From assembly GCA_963682055.1 (NCBI GenBank), contig OY821740.1:43358795-43422794 (forward strand): a DNA stretch of 64,000 bases. Direction: 5' to 3'. Position 1 is the first letter of the stretch. Each line of letters opens with the position of its first letter. Shown here piece after piece: positions 5,401-53,260 of the stretch. The notes under the pieces were generated by a model. The model was not told the origin of the DNA. It saw only the letters and a list, made by a program, of their open reading frames with translations, and did no database searches. A program made the position numbers and the translations under genes. This DNA is from Primula veris (taxonomy: Eukaryota; Streptophyta; Magnoliopsida; Ericales; Primulaceae).

Positions 5401-6618
5401 TTACCTTGGGTCTTTTGTTTGTAAATATACAGCTAAACAAGATGAATTATTCCACACATTGGAGTGCAACTTAAGTACCTCTCTCGCTTTATCTTTTAGA
5501 CTTTTTGTGCAATTCGCTTGAAGAACCATACAAAGCTTGGACACAGCTCCTAAACTCAACATCTCCTTGAGAGTTTCTTTAGTTGCTGAAAATCTAGCAA
5601 TTAGGGTTAGTATATGTATTGCTCTATCATCCGTCGCGCATGAAACCCTCAAAATCCGTTTAGCTACCATAGCAATGCCACCCCCGTGCTTAAGAAGCTG
5701 AGCTCTACCATCGGCACAAGAACACAAATGAGCTAAAAGACAAAACGTTAGCTCAGTCATATTCTTTTGGGTGTCATTATTTAGCTCGAGGTCAATCAGA
5801 TTGAAAACGGCTCCTAATTCTATCATCTTCATTCGATTTCTTCCCCAAGGGCACACGTCTATAAGGATTTGCAAAGCTGTTTTCGCATTTTTTTTGAGAT
5901 TTCCAATTTCAATCATTTTCAAAATTTCTTGATGAAAATCTAGTTCAAGCCTGTCGAGCAAAGCCGAACTTGCAACCCCAATGATCAATTTAATGACCAA
6001 TAAAGCTTGTGTTTTGACACTAATTTCCGAGTGAAATCGTAAAACCCACAATAGAGATTGTAATATTTTGTTACCATCCTTGATCACCATTTGCTTTACA
6101 TCATTTGTTGGGCTCCATATTAGATTAATAATTGACAGTGCTTCTTCAAGACCATTTATCCTTCCCTCGTCAGAAATTCTAGTTACAAACAAAAACATGG
6201 ATTTTATAACTCCGGCTTCAGTCATACAAGCCTTGTTTTTCTCATTGTCCTTTGCAAGTTCCATCAATTTGTTCAATGCTTTTACACATACGAGATGATT
6301 GTGGACTTCTCGGATTAGTTTTAGAACAATTGGTTTTTCAAGGGGACATTTTGGAGTTGGGATCCGATCCACTCCAAATTTAGCATTTGCGACACACCAT
6401 GCTTGGATAAGACGCCTAAGTGTGTGGTTAGGAGTTAGGTCTGAGTCGGATGTCATAGGTTGCTTTGTGATTGGACATGTGGCATCATTGGTTGTTGATA
6501 GCCAATGCTCAATGCTTTTTCGGTCGTATGTCATGCCCGAGACAGTTATAACCGGGTCGTTCATTATTTGGAGAGAAATTGGGCATATGAAGTAATGAGG
6601 TATGTCGATCTCTTCCAT
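5401..6618 (-). CDS. U-box E3 ubiquitin ligase, PUB22/23/24 type (405 aa)
   Basis: Plant U-box/ARM E3 ubiquitin ligase, intact and intronless, as PUB22/23/24-class genes are. The U-box spans about residues 6-80: IPHYFICPISLQIM opens it, followed by DPV, TYDRKSIEHWL, TCPITKQ and the hallmark LTPNHTLRRLIQAWC. A short linker with RIPTPKCP follows, as in PUB22-24. Residues about 100-390 are helical ARM-like repeats. The family uses the U-box to bind E2 enzymes and the ARM part to bind substrates; members dampen pattern-triggered immunity and drought responses, acting in the cytoplasm. The start is the only Met before the U-box and gives the family's usual length (about 400-450 aa). Fold and assignment are firm; whether it is the counterpart of PUB22, 23 or 24 is not. 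Confidence 0.93.
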   Translation of the reverse strand: MEEIDIPHYFICPISLQIMNDPVITVSGMTYDRKSIEHWLSTTNDATCPITKQPMTSDSDLTPNHTLRRLIQAWCVANAKFGVDRIPTPKCPLEKPIVLKLIREVHNHLVCVKALNKLMELAKDNEKNKACMTEAGVIKSMFLFVTRISDEGRINGLEEALSIINLIWSPTNDVKQMVIKDGNKILQSLLWVLRFHSEISVKTQALLVIKLIIGVASSALLDRLELDFHQEILKMIEIGNLKKNAKTALQILIDVCPWGRNRMKMIELGAVFNLIDLELNNDTQKNMTELTFCLLAHLCSCADGRAQLLKHGGGIAMVAKRILRVSCATDDRAIHILTLIARFSATKETLKEMLSLGAVSKLCMVLQANCTKSLKDKAREVLKLHSNVWNNSSCLAVYLQTKDPR

Positions 6619-7604
6619 TTATGCCAAGGAAAAAGTTTGAAAAGAGAGAGGAAGGAGAAGGAAAAGAGCTTCAATGTAGATATATGAAAAATGTAACATA
6701 TTTAAAGAGGTACATCTCATTCTCAATTTCATCCATGTTGGTGAACTAAAATGTTGAAATCTTCAAACCAAATAATACAGACTTAGAAAGCAAAGCTAGG
6801 AAGGTAGGATAGTATGAGAGAACGGCTGCTTTTTTATTCTCAGGGTTTGAATTGAAAAGTTGAATTTCTAGAAAAGTAAACGGTGTTTACACTAGTAATT
6901 AGCCTTTTTTGCCTCATACGATATCTTTTGCCGGTCAAACTTATTGTTTTAACCAATTACTACCAAGATAAAGTTATTATGCTGGAATATTTATAAGGTA
7001 CTTTTTTATTTTTTTATTTATTAATAAGAGTTAAAGTGTCATGATTGCTATATCTTTTGACGCCAAACTGAAGAAGATAAAATCTTTGTAATAAAAACTT
7101 GAAATTAATTATTTGTATCAAACTGGTCTTTTTTGTGAGCTCCCTTGAGGCAACAACATGTGCTGTTCCAAGTTTTTTCTTTGTTCTTTTAATATAATTC
7201 TTAATTACCAAAAACAAAATTAAGAGTTAAACTAAATTTTCATATTAGCAAAAACAATAGAAACAGTGCATTTGATAATAACAGCCAATTACACTACGTC
7301 CATGCATCATAATTTGCGGTCAACTCCAGCCACTTAAAACATTTTTTTTCAAATACACACTGTTTTTGACTTTTTTTTTTTTAATGACAACTTGGCCACG
7401 GAGTAGCTCTTGTATAGTATACCGACTTAATTTGTCCATGTGATAAAAGTCCAGCATTGGAAAATTGGAATGCTTCCTTATTTTTGAACGACTAGGCAAA
7501 CAGTGTGGGCGATTCCAGATTATTTCATGTGGCCATTATTATTAAGGTATTAAATAATGTATGCTTTAAAGCCAACCCGATTATATATTCATATAAACAA
7601 CACT

Positions 7605-20357: not shown

Positions 20358-23300
20358 CTAATTGTAAGCTGTTGTTGAAACGAGCTTGTGCCTTTTTGTG
20401 CTGATTTAGAGAAATAAAAAAAATCAATTATACTAATAGAGGATCGAAATGATATAACAAGGAATTTGATGAAAACTTTAAACTCTTGACTTACAAACAA
20501 ATCTGTCAACGTAGTTTTACCAACATCCGTAATAATAACGTCAATGTTTTACTCAAATAACGTCGACAGAGGTTTTTCCCAATAGCTTACTTATTCGCAA
20601 TTTCCAGTGTTATACCGAGAGTCTGAGACTGGTATGTGAGTTGGTTTTCGAACTTCGTGAGACAATCAGAGCTGGTTTAGAACCTATGTAAGACGGAAAA
20701 CTACGAGAAGGCAACCCAATTATAGTTCTAGCTAGCTAGAAGGGTCTTTGCCAAGCACGAATGAATGAATATCACTCGATATAAATTTTGATATCATACT
20801 TCTGTTCAAAACTGTTAGATTGCAAAATCAATTTTGATGAGAATCCAGATTTTTGGATGGAATACAATGAGATGGAATTGCAAAACTGGTTAGTTGAAAG
20901 GTTGTTTTAGGACATCGGTTTGAGTTAAACTATGTGTTTGGAATAGTCCAGATGACGAACTTAAAAGAGCAACTTCATTTGATTCAACATGATAAAACAC
21001 TAACATCTCGTTTAAACCACCGACAACATCCCAACAAATTATTCAGAAAACTTACACAGTATGTTCCAAAAGATAAAGTGTAGTGATTTCCATCCAATAA
21101 AATGGTTCAATACCTATGCATAACACCAAGAGAGTCCTAGTAAGTTCTGTACTGGCACATAGTCTGCCATTTCTTTTAACTAAATCTGCTAAACATTGAA
21201 AACCATCATAACTCACCTTGTATTAATAAGCTCAGGTTGTTCACGATACTTCCATATCAAGAGTAGCAGCTTAATTGTTAGTGAAGATTGATTACGTGGA
21301 ACGATTAGAGACTCGGTGAGATCTACGGGCTCGTCTGTGGGCAACCCTTGGACAATTTTGGTGGTAGACCTCAGTCGAAAACCGCTTCCATGAGGTGATG
21401 TTAGTGCAGTAATGTCATAAGAAAACCCTACTTTAACATGGGGAGTCCCAATACAGCTTACACTGACTGCGTTTCCATTAGGTTGACTAATATTCCGGAT
21501 GATAAAAATAGTGCCCTCTTTCCTTTCTTGGTAAATTAGATATTCTTGAGAAAGATTTATGGTCACATTGGTCCTCTCGTCGTACATCAGGTGTCCAATA
21601 CAGGAATGGCTCCTACAGTGCTTAGCTAAATCAGCCTGAGACCCAGAAAAGTTGCAAGTGACTAGAGGACAGGAGCATGGTAAATAGTTACACATCTTCT
21701 CATGTTCAAGTTTATCGCTATGGGAGAAAATCTCCTTGCAACCGTAAGCAGTGTTCTGGCACGGCATTTTGAGTGATTCAAGAACTTTCTCAATGGGACG
21801 ACATCTGGTGTACTCAGTTTGGGTACGGCAAGATGGACACTTGTTACTAAGCTTGAGGTAGCACGTGGAGCATAACAGATGCCCATTCTCACACTGAAAC
21901 AACAAAACAAAGATGTATGTAGAGAAGAAAGAAATAACATATTTTCAGATTCTACACAAAATTGACTTTTTGGTGCGAGACGACAGGAAACGTCTTTTTG
22001 CAGTCAATCAAATGTAAATCCAACCTCAATGCGCACATACAAAGTCAATGTCACACATTGGAAGCACGACATTGACCGTTTGTTTTTTTAGAAATTTTTT
22101 ATCTCATGCAGTAGAAGCGCACTTCACAGTTTTTTGAGGTAAATTATTCGGTACTGGAACTGACTGTTAGTAAGAAACATAATTTAACTACTAACCAAAT
22201 CTGTTGTACATACACTTTTTTGGATGTAAAGAAAGTGTGTACAAGTTCCTAACATAGATTCTGAGTTCTTTACAGTTCCCAAAAAACAGATAGAGAAACT
22301 TCGAAAGTCGCAAAGATGAAATAAAATACTTACGGCGGAGAATTTCTCCTTTTAGCAACGCAAGAAATTTGAAGCTTATATTCTTTTCTAGAACAATAAT
22401 ACTGAACTTCATATTAGAGCTTTTCAAAACCTAAGCACATTAATTGTCAATATTAAGTGAATACACACATTGATGAAGACAGCTAAAAAGCTTTATGAAC
22501 TGTGGATATAAAGACTAATCTACGAACTAAAGCAATGAACTACGGATTCAAAAGATATCCCAACCTATAAGAAAGGGGTTTCATAAACAATTAGACACAG
22601 CAACACAGACAGTTTCAACAAAGCCTCCATTTCGACAAATGTGGAGCTCACTCGGCAAAACATTGAAGAATTATTTCCTAGTTTACTTAAAGTTTCATCA
22701 AATTTGCATGTACAAAAAAAACTCAATCACTGGTTGGCAGCCCTCAGAATATAACCAAATATTATAGTAAAAAACTATGCTTCAAAAATTTAAATACATT
22801 TACTCTTGAGGAGCCTAAATCGCCATCGGCTGAATGATACAACAACCTGCCCAGACGTCAGCCACCCAAGCCAACCAATTACTTGATGACACGTGTGGCG
22901 TGTCACTAGATAATTGTTGCATATATGATATAAATAGCCAAGCTAAATGAAGTGAATGGGAATCCATTATCCAATAACATCAATTGAAAGTTGTAACATT
23001 AGAAAAGAGAGCAAAAGGAAAAGTAGTAACTATACTTTGTAAAGCAGCATATATTCTTCTTTGTTAATTAAACACTAATAACGTTTAATAAGCTAAAAAC
23101 TTAACACACACACCACATACACTAAATGCTACAAATATTCAAAAGTCACAAATATGAAATAAAATACCTACTGCGGAGAATTTCTCCTTTTAGCAACGCA
23201 AGAAATTTGAAGCTTATATTCTTTTCTAGAACAATATTAATTCTGAACTGCATATTAGAGCTTTTCCAAAACCTCAGCACATTAACTGTCAATATTAAGT

Positions 23301-24988
23301 GAATACACACATTGATGAAGACAACTAAAAAGATTTATGAACTGTGGATATAAAGATTAACATACGAACTAGAGCATTAAACTACCGATTCAAAAGATAT
23401 CCAGACCTATAAGAGAAGGGTTTCATAAACAATTAGACAGCAACACAAACTGTTTCGACAAAACCTCCATTTCGACAAATGTGGGGCTCACTCGGCAAAA
23501 CATTGAAGTTTACTTAAAGTTTCATTGAATTTGCAAGTACAAAAAAACTCAATCACTGGTTGGCGGGACTCAGAAAATAACCAAATTTTATAGAAGAAAA
23601 ACAGGCAAACAAAATTAAAATATGTTTACGCTTGACAGGCCTAGATCGCCATCAGCTGAAAGGTACAGCAAACTACCCAAATGTCATCCGCCCAAGCCAA
23701 CCAATTACCTGATGACACGTGTCACAATTAATTGTTACATATTTACTAGAAATAGCCATGCTAAATGAAGTGAATGGGAATCCATTATTCAATAACATCA
23801 CTTGAAAGTTGTACCATTAGGAAAGAGAGTAAGAGCAAAAGTAGAAACTATACTTTGTATATATAGCAGCCTATATTCTCCTTTGTTTATAAACACTAAT
23901 AACGTTTAATAAGCTAAAAACTTAACATTTAGCATTTAAATACTTCGAGATTCTTTTGCATTCCCTGTAACCAAACAATTCAACAAGCCCTATTTTCCCA
24001 TGATCGAACCATAAATACATTTGTATATCATCAACGTTATTACTTTTTTTTTTACTTATAAAATTATATTGTTAAATTAAAGGTATATGTATGAAACACG
24101 AACTACTAAATTAATTCGAATCTATTTCTTTTCAATACCCTGCTATAAGTCTATAACTATGCCGTAGTCTCATCTTATAATTTAAGACTACTATAATACC
24201 TGACAAATCAGGGCTAAGATCTGTGATGTAGCGGTTCATACACGCCATAATCCTAAATACTACTTCATCCGTTTCCAATTAATTGTCTTTTACGAAATTA
24301 CGTGCAATTTTGACCGGTTTATAACATGTATCAAAATTGTCAAAATGAAAATTTTCAAAACTAAATTATATAATTTAATGTTTGAACTATATGATTAACT
24401 TTTGATCATTCCGACAATTTTAATACAAGTTATTGGCTGGTCAAAACTGCACGTAGTTTTGTAATGAACAATTAATTGGGAACGGAGGGAGTAGTAACAC
24501 ACACACACATAGGGCAATGGAGCAAATCCGGATCAGTATTGTACTTGATAAACAGGATTAGATAGAAACACGGCGCAAATAGAGCAATGAAGCAAATCCA
24601 GATCAATAAAATTCGGCTCTAATAAGCCACCATCCATCCTCGAGGGCGCCTCGGAATTTTTAACACAATCCTTGTTATGCATCGCATTCAAGTCGATGAC
24701 GATAATTATCATACGATTAGAAACCTTAGTACAATTGAACTCGGCGAGCCGAATAACAGACCCTGTTTGCAAAGCCATTGACCCGACGAGAAAGTTGTTC
24801 TTCCCAGCGAGCATTCCTATGAGGGTTTGTTTTCCATCCGATAGCTCCATTGCGTACCTTTCTTTGCCCTGTCCTGATGATGTGTTTATGAGCCTCAGAT
24901 TGGTCACTTTCAGCACCGGTTTAGTATCGAAAAGGCCTTCTCCGTTCGTCAGCTTCGCTATTGCACCTTCCGTCAGCTCGATCGTCAT
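20358..24988 (-). CDS. RPA1N-SINA fusion E3 ligase, copy A (387 aa, early stop)
   Basis: Three exons: 24545-24988, 21217-21893 and 20358-20400; introns in phase 0 and phase 2. Residues 1-105 match the RPA1 (RPA70) N-terminal OB-fold: MTIELTEGAIAKL, KPVLKVTNLRLIN, YAMELSDGKQTL, LQTGSVIRLAEF, IIIVIDLNAM. After a short linker a complete C3HC4 RING follows (C135, C138, C149, H153, C156, C159, then CPSC), split by intron 1 as in SINA-like genes. A SINA zinc-finger block (GCKEIFSHSDKLEHEKMC, then CPLVTC and KHCRSH) and a short substrate-binding-like region come next. The frame ends at TAG 20358-20360 (AAT TAG), although an open, copy-B-like sequence ending in TDMLSSNDSGQEASS continues in frame to 20280; copy A is thus about 26 residues shorter. 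Expected role: ubiquitin ligase guided by RPA70N-type interactions, inferred. Confidence 0.85.
22316..23950. repeat. Tandem duplication inside intron 1 of copy A (period ~838 bp)
   Basis: The words GCGGAGAATTTCTCCTTTTA, GAAGCTTATATTCTTTTCTA and GTGAATACACACATTGATGA recur in order, first from about 22335 and again from about 23173. Copy B's intron 1 carries the block only once (from about 27945), so the duplication arose in copy A after the genes separated. Confidence 0.85.
24261..24493. mobile_element. Stowaway-type MITE in intron 1 of copy A
   Basis: The left end TACTTCATCCGTTTCC and right end GGGAACGGAGGGAGTA are inverted, with TA borders. In copy B the matching position reads CTAAATACTAGTAACACAC with no insert, which gives an empty site and dates the insertion after the gene duplication. 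It lies about 50 bp inside the intron from exon 1. Confidence 0.9.
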
Positions 24989-25899: not shown

Positions 25900-28800
25900 C
25901 TATGAGATGGCCTCATGTCCACTATCATCAGATGATAACATGTCAGATTCCTTGAACTTCAAATTCCCTAGTTGGCCTCCTGTAGCGAACTTGCGTCTCT
26001 TTGTGCTGTTTAGAGAAATAAAAAGAATCAATTATATATACTTAGTAGAGGATCGAAATGATATATAACAAGGAATTTAATAAAAACTTTAAATTCTGAC
26101 TTAAAAAGACATCTGTCAACATATTTTTACCAACATCCGTATTAAATAACACTGATAAAGTCATACAGGTTTTTCCCAATAGTTTACAGCTTATTCGCAA
26201 TTTCAAGTTTTATACTGAGACTGGTATGTGAGTTGGGTTTCAAACTTCGTGAGACAATCAGAGCTGGTAATTATCTAGAATCTATGTTAGACGGAAAACT
26301 ACGAGAAGGCAACCGAATTATAGTTCTAGTGAGCTAGAAAGGTCACTAGAGGAGCTAGAAGGGTCAAGCATGAATGAACAAATATCACTCGATATAAATT
26401 TTGATATTATGTTTCTGTTCAAAACTGTTAGATTGGAAAATCAATTTCGATGAGAATGCAGATGTTATTTAAGTTGGAAAAACTTTTGGATGGTATACAA
26501 AGAGATGGAATTGCAAAACTGGTTACTTGGAAAGTTGTTTTAGGACAACGGTTTGAATTAAACTACGTTTTCGGTATGGTCCACACGACGAACATAAAAA
26601 GAGTGACTTCATTTGATTCAACATGCTAAAGTGCTATCATCTTGTTTAAACCACTGACAACATCTCAACAAATTATTGAGAAAAATTATATGTTCCAAAA
26701 GATCAAGTCCAGTTTCGTCCTATCAATAACATGGTTCAATACGCACAACACCAATATTCCTAGTAAGTTTCGTACTGCCACATAGCCTGCCATTTTTTAA
26801 GTACATCTGCTAAACATTGAAAAACATCATAACTCACCTTGTATTAACAAGCTCGGGTTGTTCATGATACTTCCATATCGAGAGTAGAAGCTTAATTGTC
26901 TGTGAAGACGGATTATGTGGAATGAAGAGAGAATCGGTGAGATTTACAAGTTTGCCTGTGGGCAACCCTTGGACAACTTTGGTGGTAGACCTCAGCCGTA
27001 AACCGCTTCCTATTGCAGTAATATCATAATAAAACCCAACTTTAACATGATGATTCCCAATACAGCTTACACTTACTGCGTTTCCATAAGTTGGATCACT
27101 AATATTCCGGATGATGAAAACAGTGCCTTCTATCCGTTCTTGGTAAATTAGATAGTCTTGAGATACATCCATGCTTACATTGGTCCTCTCGTCATACAAA
27201 AGATGTCCAATACTGGAATGGCTCCTACAGTGCTTAGCTAAATCAGCCTGAGACCCGGAAAAGCTGCAAGTGACTAGAGGACAGGAGCATGGTAAATAGC
27301 TACACATCTTCTCATGTTCAAGTTTATCACTATGGGATAAAATCTCCTTGCAACCGTAAGCAGTGTTCTGGCACGGCATTTTCAGTGATTCAATAACTTT
27401 TTCAATTGGACGACATCTGGTGTACTGAGTTTGGGTACGGCAAGATGGACACTTCTTTCTAAGCTTGAGGTAGCATGTGGAGCATAACATATGACCATTC
27501 TCACACTGAAACAACAAAACAAAGATGTATGTAATATTAGAGAAGAAAGAAAAAACATATTTTCAGATTCTACACAAAATTGGCTTTTTTGCGCGAGAAG
27601 ACTGAAAGCATCTTTTTGCAGTCAATGAAATGTAAATCCAACCTTAATTCGCAGATCCAGAATCAGTGTCACACATTGAAAGCACGACATTGACCATTTT
27701 TTTTTTGAATTTTTTATCTAGTGCATTAGAAGCACACTTAGCAATTTTTTGAGGTAAATTATTCGGTACCCTGGAACTGACTGTTAGTAAGAAACGTAAT
27801 CTAACTACTAACCCAATCTGTTGTACATACACTTTTTTTGGATGTAAAGACAAAAGTGTACAAGTTCCTAATATAGATTCTGAGTTCTTCACAATTTCCA
27901 AAAAACAGATAGAGAAACAGTTGAACAAGCTTCAAAAGTCGCAAAGATAAAATTTCTCCTTTTCGCAGCGCAAGTAATGTGGAGCTTATATTCTTTTATA
28001 GAACAATAATACTGAACTGCATATTAATGCTTTTTCAAAACCTCAGCACATTAATTGTCAATATTAAGCGAATACACACATTGATGAAGACAACTAAAAA
28101 GCTTCATGAATTGTGGATATAAAGACTACCATATGACCTAAAGCATTAAACTGCCGATTCAAAAGATATTCTGACCTATATATTATTGTTTTAAAAGAGC
28201 GTTATATTGCGCTATAGTTCACGAAATAGCGTTTTTCGGCCGAAAAACGCTATGATAAACTTCTATTTGGATGGAAAAACGCTAAATTCGCGCTATAGGA
28301 ACGCTATTTACGCTATAGCGGGTGCAGTCTAAATTTTTTTTATATTTTTGATCAAAATTTTAATGAAATTATTGGAGGCTAAAGATAATCAAACCCCAAA
28401 ACTCTTACAAACAAAGTAAATGCTCTGACATCTCAACTACAATCATTTTGTGATTATTAGTTACAACTTTTTATATATATATTTAGTTAATTTTTATTAG
28501 ATATTCTGAATTTAATGTTATATTTATATGTATTTAGGCAAAAAAAATTACACCGCAAAGCGATATGTAGCAACGCTATTTGTGCTTTTAGCGTTTCTCT
28601 CGAAAAAACGCTACACTAGCAATAACGCTTTTTAAAACATTGCTATATAAATATAAGAGAAGAGTTTCATAAAAAAACTAGACAGCAACACAGACAGTTT
28701 CAACAAAGCCTCCATTTCGTCGAATGTGGAGCTCACTCGGCAAAACATTGCAGAATTATTTCGTAGTTTACTTAAAGATTCATTAAATTTGCATGTACAA

Positions 28801-30357
28801 AAAAAAAACTCAATCGCTGGTTGACGACCTTAAGAATATAACCAAATCTTATAGTAGAAAACTATTCTTCAAAAATTTAAGACATTTACTCTTGAGGAGC
28901 CTAAATCGCCATCGGCTGAATGATACATCAACCTGCCCAAACGTCAGCCGCCCAAGCCAACCAATTACTTGATGACACGTGACACTGTTAATTGTTACAT
29001 ATTTGCTAGAACCATGCTAAATGAAGTGAATGGTAATCCATTATTCAATAACATCACTTGAAAGTTGCAGCATTAGGAAAGAGAGTAAAAGCAAAAGTAG
29101 AAACTATACAGCAGCCTATATCCACCTTTGTTTATTAAACACTAATAGCGTTTAATTAATTAAATACTTCGAGTTTTTCTGATGCTCACTATTTTGCATT
29201 CCCTGTAACCAAACAAGTCAACAAGCCCTAATTTCCCATGATTAAACCATAAATACATTGGCATATAATCCACATGTTTTTTTTTTTTTACTTTTAGGCT
29301 TTAAAATTAAAAGCATATGCGTGAAAAACAATCTACTAAATTAATTCGAATCCATTTCTTCCCAAAACCTTACTATAACTATATTGTAGCTTAATCTTAT
29401 ATTTTATGACTATTATACTACCTGACAAATTAGAGCTAAGATATGCAATGTAGCGGCATGGGAGAAACTAGATACATGTTAAAAGAGGCTACAACACTCC
29501 ATATTAATAAAATTGCGAAAATTTCCCATGTATTTTAAATGAAATTTGACGATTATATCATTTCATCACACCCATAATTACAAAAAAAATACTATATAAA
29601 CATGCAATTCACTAATTCAGCCTCATCCAGCCATTGTCAGTAGCGGTTCATATACACCATATGCCTAAATACTAGTAACACACACACACAGACAAATACA
29701 CTACATGCTACAAATAGTGTGATACATAAACAATCAAAAGAACAGCCCAACAATGTTGTATAATTTTAATTTGATATAAATGAATTGGCCTTTTGATTAA
29801 ACAACAAAAGGAACAGCACAACTGTATTGTATATTTTTCATTTGATATAAAATTAATTGGCTTTTTAATTAAACAACAAAAGAAACAGCACAACAAAATT
29901 GTACCTGATAAACTGGAACAGATAGAAACTCGGCACAAATAGGGCAATGAAACAAATCCAGATCAACAAAAGTCGGCGCTAATAAGCCACCATCCATTCT
30001 CGAGGGCGCCTCAGAACTATTTTCACACTCGTTGTTATGCATCACATTCAACTCGAAGACGATAATTATCAAAGGACCACGAATGTCTTCGCAAATAAAC
30101 TGAACTAGCTGAATAACAGACCCCTTTTGCAAGGCTTTTGATTCGGCGAGAAAGTTAATTTCCATAGAGAGCACGCCTGGGAGGGTTTGTATTCCGTCCG
30201 ATAGATCTATTTCGTAAACGTCTTGGGCCTCTTGGCCCTCAGTTGATGGTATGTTTACCAGCCTCAGATCGGTCACTTTCAGCACAGGGTAAGTGTCGGG
30301 AATGCTTTCTCCGTTTATCAGCCTCGCTATCGCACCTTCCGTCAGCTCGATCGCCAT
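25900..30357 (-). CDS. RPA1N-SINA fusion E3 ligase, copy B (408 aa, intact)
   Basis: Three exons: 29905-30357, 26838-27505 and 25900-26005; phases 0 and 2 as in copy A; the frame is intact (1227 nt). Residues 1-107 form an RPA70N-type OB-fold: MAIELTEGAIARL, YPVLKVTDLRLVN, YEIDLSDGIQTL, LQKGSVIQLVQFIC, LIIIVFELNVM. The RING is C138-x2-C141-x10-C152-x3-H156-x2-C159-x2-C162-x7-C170-x2-C173, all eight ligands present. SINA zinc fingers follow (GCKEILSHSDKLEHEKMC, CPLVTC, KHCRSH), then a shortened SINA substrate/dimer region. Exon 3 gives a basic patch STKRRK and an acidic Ser-rich tail ending DDSGHEAIS. The start is chosen by agreement with copy A and with RPA1, although an in-frame ATG lies further upstream in the leader. 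Single-exon continuity of OB-fold, linker and first RING half rules out a splicing artefact in joining the domains. Function as a replication/repair-linked E3 ligase is inference. Confidence 0.9.
28184..28642. mobile_element. hAT-like non-autonomous element in intron 1 of copy B
   Basis: It starts TATTGTTTTAAAA and ends TTTTAAAACATTG, inverted with 11 of 13 matching. The flanks CTATATAT and CTATATAA give a near-perfect 8-bp target duplication. The interior has many GCGCTATAGCG and AAAACGCTA words in both orientations. A sister copy lies at 49966-50416. Copy A lacks it. Confidence 0.85.
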
Positions 30358-49965: not shown

Positions 49966-50416
49966 TATTGTTTTAAATAACGCGTTATATTGCGTTATAA
50001 TTTGCGAAATAGTGTTTTTCGACCGAAAAACGCTATGATAAACCGTTATTTGGATGGAAAAACGCTAAATTCGCGCTATAGAGACGCTATAGCGTAAATA
50101 GCGCGCTATAGTGGAGGCTATTTACGCTGTAGCGGGTGTAGTCCAATTTTATTTTATTTTTTTAAAATTTTAATGAAATTATTAGAGGCCAAAGAGAATC
50201 AAACCCAAAAGATACAATCATTTTATGATTATTAGTTACAACTTTTTATATATATTTAATTAATTTTTATTGGATGTTCTGAATTTAATGCTATATTTAT
50301 ATGTATTTACAACAAAAAAAAATACACCGCAAAGCGCCATGTAGAAACGTTATTTGCGTTTTTAACGTTTCTATCGAAAAAATGCTACGCTAGCGATAAT
50401 ATTATTTAAAACATTG
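49966..50416. mobile_element. hAT-like non-autonomous element, second copy
   Basis: Starts TATTGTTTTAAATAACGCG and ends TTTAAAACATTG. The flanks ATAATTAA and ATAATTAC give an 8-bp duplication with one mismatch. The interior matches 28184-28642 with the same CGCTATAGCG words; this copy has an extra inverted GCTATAGCGTAAATAGCGCG piece near 50090. Confidence 0.85.
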
Positions 50417-50439
50417 ATAATTACCTGACTGTTGGATTT

Positions 50440-53131: not shown

Positions 53132-53260
53132 TTATTTTCCGTCCGATAGCTGCATTGCATACATATCTTGACCGGTCACTTTCAGCACAGGGTTAGTGTT
53201 GCAGAGGCTTTCTCCGTTTGTCAGCCTCGCTATCGCACCTTCCGTCAGCTTGATCGATAT
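53132..53260 (-). pseudogene. RPA1N-SINA fusion, dead 5' fragment (copy C)
   Basis: On the minus strand the copy has the leader CTCTCTCTCCCTCACTAAG as in copies A and B, but the start codon is ATA in place of ATG. It reads SIKLTEGAIARLTNGES, NPVLKVT, then, after an in-frame loss of about 15 residues relative to copy A, MYAMQLSDGK and a TAA stop. Nothing of the RING remains. The promoter region to about 53560, including the TATATATA and GATAAAAGCGCG words, is also copied. The E2F-like core has lost its CCC. Confidence 0.85.

Follow-up and report, generated by a model that had tools for sequence, protein, structure and literature searches.

The window analyzed here, a stretch of 64,000 nucleotides of Primula veris (C1:43358795-43422794; genome of 436.5 Mb in 34 contigs), contains a tandem array formed by two genes, copies A and B, and by a gene relic, copy C. 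Copy B has three exons which lie precisely where the original prediction had placed them and are separated by GT-AG introns (exon 1 donor, CAG/GTACAA; exon 2 acceptor, TTTCAG/TGT; exon 2 donor, AAG/GTGAGT). As had also been predicted, its frame of 408 codons is intact, without internal stop. Copy A (20358-24988) encodes 387 amino acids and has the complete architecture of copy B with identical intron positions. In copy C, part of exon 1 and the upstream flank have been kept (Table 1).

Table 1. Location of the fusion genes and of their parts, numbered from the first nucleotide of the window
Feature	Position	Strand	Description
Copy B, exon 1	29905..30357	-	RPA1-type OB domain, linker and first two RING ligands; 151 codons
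Copy B, Rep-A_N match	30037..30345	-	Residues 5-107; Pfam, 63.7 bits vs. a curated cut-off of 26.7
Copy B, intron 1	27506..29904	-	2399 bp; interrupts the RING in phase 0
Copy B, exon 2	26838..27505	-	Remaining RING, Sina zinc finger, SIAH-like substrate-binding domain
Copy B, intron 2	26006..26837	-	832 bp, phase 2
Copy B, exon 3	25900..26005	-	C-terminal tail, KRRK basic stretch, TAG stop
Copy A, exon 1	24545..24988	-	148 codons, same plan as copy B; Rep-A_N, 74 bits vs. a cut-off of 26.7
Copy A, exon 2	21217..21893	-	Same plan as copy B
Copy A, exon 3	20358..20400	-	Stops earlier than that of copy B
Copy C	53138..53260	-	Exon 1 relic only; ATA at the ATG position, stop after a partial OB

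Domain architecture of the array

Three Pfam domains were identified in copy B above their curated cut-offs: Rep-A_N (1.8e-17, profile positions 1-100 of 101), Sina_RING (residues 138-173, 47.3 bits vs. 29.3, 2.3e-12) and Sina_ZnF (residues 187-247, 54.4 bits vs. 32, 1.6e-14). The RING is of the C3HC4 type and, as claimed beforehand, has all eight of its ligands, which were located by eye: C138 and C141 are encoded by exon 1, and C152, H156, C159, C162, C170 and C173 by exon 2. Exon 1 had been described as encoding an OB-fold, a linker and the first half of a RING; these elements do stand in one exon, but the "half" amounts to only two of the eight ligands. The next exon, in agreement with its earlier description, completes the RING with the other six ligands and adds the SINA zinc finger, Sina_ZnF being above cut-off.

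The assignment of residues 1-110 to RPA70N, likewise proposed at the outset, was corroborated by the Rep-A_N score, by sequence matches of residues 1-106 to human RPA70N chains (best, 2.2e-6) and by the match of exon 1 to the RPA1 model TIGR00617 (residues 4-122, 46.6 bits), a score far lower than the full-length cut-off of 334.2, as expected of a fragment. AlphaFold2 modeling of exon 1, based on a two-row alignment of copies A and B which did not include the genome's own RPA1 exons, gave a pLDDT of 30, and the OB fold of the N-terminus is predicted here from the profile and sequence matches. The other RPA1 domains (DNA-binding OBs and C-terminal domain) gave no Pfam match in copy A or B; they are present in the RPA1 gene located on C7.

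In copy A, the Rep-A_N profile is covered from position 1 to 99 of 101. Intron 1 has the same position in both genes, the 15 bases preceding its acceptor being identical, and splice sites as well as all RING ligands are retained in the two copies. Because copy A repeats the architecture with the same intron positions, this architecture is not due to chance. Moreover, copies A and B can be aligned across their introns as well as their exons, and the duplication therefore took the whole gene. One could still suspect a gene-model error, exons 1 and 2 belonging to separate transcripts. This explanation is highly improbable, as both copies have their RING ligands distributed two plus six on either side of the junction, the RING of the paralogues is interrupted at the same place, and phase and splice sites fit. 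At the level of sequence, one continuous frame carries an RPA70N-type domain followed by a SINA-like RING E3, and the RING is completed across the predicted splice.

Relatives of the SINA part and of the OB part

In a tree of 25 SINA exon-2 sequences (11 of the 51 own-genome places listed and 14 of the 30 protein matches), copies A and B group together (100/100) within a set of nine genes of the same genome (100/100); the 14 other-plant proteins and two genes on C8 lie outside this set. The nearest paralogue, C6a, is 67% identical to copy A. C6a, C6b and C6c have their RING intron in the same place as the fusion and have different N-termini; Rep-A_N was not found in C6a, nor was the first exon of another paralogue, C6d, in the region searched (L013 2000-3500). 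As read from the genome, approximately the first 120 residues of RPA1 stand in the fusion where the SINA-like paralogues have their own N-terminus, and this arrangement was duplicated in tandem, giving copies A and B and the relic C.

Plant SINA-like E3s, such as P0018 from Arabidopsis, P0003 from Camellia and C6a, share with the fusion the Sina RING, the zinc finger and the SIAH-like substrate-binding domain. Where the fusion has an RPA1 OB, the matched proteins examined have no N-terminal OB (7/7) and mostly a low-complexity acidic N-terminus. The structural model of copy B exon 2 (27 sequences) reached a pLDDT of 83.5, with low values for the first seven residues, at the start of the RING. 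Using Foldseek, 17 structures matched this model at E 0.001 or better, all of which are SIAH structures, among them the SIAH substrate-binding domain 4c9z (1.9e-11, TMq 0.54). The model thus assigns a SIAH-type substrate-binding fold to exon 2. In addition, sequence comparison of the region from the RING to the first zinc finger gave a match to SIAH1 (9g0l, 2.6e-18). The fusion is therefore like SIAH1 and SIAH2, the animal SINA homologues, in RING-ZnF1 sequence and substrate-binding fold; unlike the fusion, the matched SIAH chains have no OB domain.

Additional SINA-like loci were observed in the genome. At C9:18.82-19.09 Mb, there is a large array of SINA-like matches, four of which have identical scores. 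The SINA-like genes at C4:31.10-31.14 Mb (L019, L020) have their RING in one open frame devoid of intron, unlike the C6 genes and the fusion. Finally, C7:32.43 Mb (L017 3751-4083) carries a SINA fragment which closely resembles copy A (82% over 93 amino acids, followed by a stop) and has no OB match within its 10 kb.

Regarding the OB part, the fusion shares the whole Rep-A_N profile with the N-terminal domain of RPA1 (RPA70N, DBD-F). Its nearest relative is the C7 RPA1 gene, which also encodes zinc knuckles and the further domains of RPA1: identity is 43-46% to the first and third of its first exons, vs. 26-29% to the gene on C5. All three RPA1 genes found in the genome have a phase-2 intron which interrupts the OB domain at one shared position (after QGR in C7, QQR in C5 and KNE in the gene at C1:2.70 Mb). 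Exon 1 of the fusion crosses this site uninterrupted in both copies, and its similarity to RPA1 extends into the next RPA1 exon, up to residue 122. As this intron is present in the RPA1 genes and missing in the fusion, the simplest inference is that the OB piece probably derives from a spliced RPA1 message, plain intron loss being a possible alternative. No further marks of retroposition were found at the fusion. A search for a common 5' flank returned only two short weak matches to RPA1 (39 and 20 bases) and none to the C6 loci.

The synonymous divergence (dS) of the OB part from C7 RPA1 (1.2-1.5) exceeds that of the SINA part between copy A and the OB-less C6a (0.55), so that the C7 gene cannot simply be a recent donor. 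The donor may have been another RPA1 gene which has since been lost; alternatively, the fusion may be of greater age, with C6a having lost its OB, or these near-saturated dS values may be misleading. The C7 RPA1 gene itself (C7:25.717 Mb; L014 ~5684-7530) has three tandem first exons before one body, the middle one of which looks frame-shifted; they are possibly alternative first exons.

Occurrence of the same architecture

A Rep-A_N profile search of the Primula genome identified at least eight places (nine candidates scored), all of which are RPA1 genes or copies A and B: the three tandem first exons of the C7 RPA1 gene, an additional piece of the middle exon which matches weakly and below the cut-off, one RPA1 gene on C5, one at C1:2.70 Mb, and the two fusion copies. 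The same search returned no match in 14 control genomes. As far as this genome search can see, the fusion appears confined to the present array.

A full-length protein search gave 30 matches among 1979 candidates, none of which (0/30) had Rep-A_N in the precomputed Pfam list; as this search finds only relatives with exact shared words, the absence is suggestive but not a proof. Searches with residues 1-130 returned no match at E 0.01 (0/219 candidates) or at E 1 (0/54), but their poor sensitivity, since not even RPA1 was recovered, gives little weight to this absence. In the literature, no RPA1-SINA fusion was found in the titles and abstract openings of the papers listed. Passages of the SINA gene surveys in apple (PMC7393226), Uncaria (PMC11277444) and wheat (PMC10734943) describe the proteins by their RING and SINA domains, and the wheat paper contains none of the words fusion, additional domain, architecture, atypical and replication. 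Within the limited sensitivity of these approaches, the earlier claim that no described protein joins RPA70N to SINA holds, both among the 30 protein matches and in the papers listed. As a feature of the genome sequence, this architecture is real, and it is new relative to the searches made.

A SINA-family ligase with an interaction domain of a replication protein as its front module was thus not seen elsewhere in these searches, and it would represent a lineage-specific case in which an intron-less copy provided a ligase with a docking domain. With their different grooves, copies A and B form a natural pair for probing the role of this domain. If the OB docks partners, ubiquitination would be linked to the RPA interaction network or to pathogens which use RPA.

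Partner-binding cleft, selection and possible function

Passages of a study on human RPA70N report that mutation of R31, R41, R43 and R91 reduces or disrupts the binding of HelB, BLM, RMI1, WRN, RAD9 and ETAA1 peptides, and describe contacts of R41, R43 and R91 with ATRIP (PMC10479964). At the four aligned positions, the C7 RPA1 has R, R, R, R (the arginine at 91 being adjacent to a serine) and the C5 protein K, R, T, R. Copy A has R, R, A, R and copy B R, V, E, P; one cleft arginine is thus missing from copy A and three out of four (R41, R43 and R91) from copy B, which has an extra arginine at the position of human K88. The net charge of the OB is 0 in the human protein, +3 and +1 in C7, +3 in C5 (83 residues only), +2 in copy A and -10 in copy B. 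Copy B therefore lacks most of the basic cleft of an RPA70N-type OB, and the loss of three cleft arginines makes docking of ATRIP- or RAD9-type acidic peptides, as envisaged in the original prediction, unlikely for this copy. Judged by its groove, copy A is a fair candidate for such docking. According to passages of a plant study (PMC4731521), RPA1A and RPA1C as a rule retain the basic cleft, which is lost in RPA1B proteins; cleft loss therefore happens in true RPA1 too.

Selection was estimated between copies A and B (Nei-Gojobori, 383 codons, 300 bootstraps). The dN/dS ratio is 0.36 (interval, 0.20-0.61) for the SINA part (residues 134-373) and 0.87 (0.48-1.55), indistinguishable from neutral, for the OB part (residues 1-107); the two intervals overlap, and p is 0.056 for the difference in substitution counts. 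Between two of the C7 RPA1 first exons, each taken together with one shared second exon (which adds sites but no changes), the same OB domain has a dN/dS of 0.12 at similar dS, and its contrast with the fusion OB reaches p 0.0004 with counts rounded by hand. Judged from these substitutions, the ligase part is constrained, and the OB part has experienced either relaxation or mixed pressure. In the OB, the relative rates of copies A and B do not differ (out of 49 changes, 10 were assigned to A, 11 to B and 28 remained unplaced). Selection on the OB core as compared with the rest was also considered and was dropped, RPA1-conserved columns showing only slightly fewer differences between A and B (16/46) than variable columns (26/49; Fisher p 0.10).

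The mechanism regarded as most likely, and proposed here tentatively, with a little less than even confidence, is that of a lineage-specific chimeric SINA-like E3 which uses its OB as a second docking module of shifting specificity. A piece of a spliced RPA1 message, or a piece that underwent intron loss, would have been placed 5' to a SINA-like RING exon. The resulting protein, a probably nuclear E3 of the SIAH type, would bind an E2 through its RING and substrates through its TRAF-like domain, while the OB would deliver partners of its own to the ligase. Copy A, with its basic groove mostly kept, may still dock acidic RPA70N-type peptides; in copy B, the acidic, arginine-poor groove would have changed or lost its specificity. 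This mechanism is supported by the presence, in one frame and in two copies, of three domains above their cut-offs and by the constraint on the SINA part. Against it, the OB ratio is indistinguishable from neutral, and a kept OB function would thus be hypothetical.

This near-neutral ratio is also what would be expected if the OB were a passenger. In that case, the RPA1 piece would have contributed no more than the start codon and an N-terminus tolerated by an otherwise ordinary SINA-like E3, and the OB would be drifting. This is a serious rival, although a rather unlikely one. It would account for the contrast of the OB with both the SINA part and the OB of RPA1, and for the three cleft arginines gone in copy B. 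The open OB frame is weak evidence against it, because neutral substitution would keep both OB frames open with a probability of 0.10-0.13 and translation of the SINA part needs the frame to be open anyway. However, both copies still score above the Rep-A_N cut-off across the whole profile, the OB interval goes down to 0.48 and the OB-SINA contrast falls at p 0.056.

Alternatively, copies A and B could be decaying duplicates, i.e., recent chimeric pseudogenes which are still unbroken. Copy C being a relic, the near-neutral OB and the earlier end of copy A exon 3 fit such decay. Nevertheless, we consider it improbable, given the upper bound of 0.61 for the SINA part and the splice sites and RING ligands retained in both copies.

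A last scenario, the boldest, is that of a decoy. TRIM5-CypA fusions (TRIMCyp) arose by retrotransposition. In them, a host-protein domain is joined to a RING E3, as in the RPA1-SINA fusion; the E3 and the captured domain are both unrelated to those found here. By analogy, the captured RPA1 domain would bait a pathogen protein targeting RPA1, for instance a geminivirus Rep, and the ligase would destroy the binder. The likeness includes a host domain on a RING E3, tandem copies, a fast-evolving bait and a constrained ligase. Furthermore, Rep was reported to bind RPA1A by yeast two-hybrid and co-IP, and rpa1a mutants to be geminivirus-resistant, the passages concerned assigning this binding to no particular part of RPA1 (PMC10657422). 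As dN/dS is not significantly above 1, a plant counterpart of TRIMCyp seems doubtful at best. Were it to exist, a spliced RPA1 message would have provided the bait, and copies with diverging baits would destroy RPA1 binders, either viral Rep or host repair factors, bait A being near-neutral in charge with its groove mostly kept, and bait B strongly acidic.

Outside their coding parts, copies A and B also differ within intron 1. In copy B, this intron contains a MITE-like insert (window 28198-28629) which is missing from copy A; a relative of 75% identity lies ~22 kb from it (window 50005-50419). In copy A, it contains an internal tandem duplication of ~0.83 kb (window 22300-23923) and an element (window 24258-24493) which matches, in both orientations and at 78-80%, the RING intron of paralogue C6c (L009 4908-5135). 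Elsewhere in the window, a 405-codon open frame (5401-6618) was recognized by eye as a putative U-box (PUB-like) E3.
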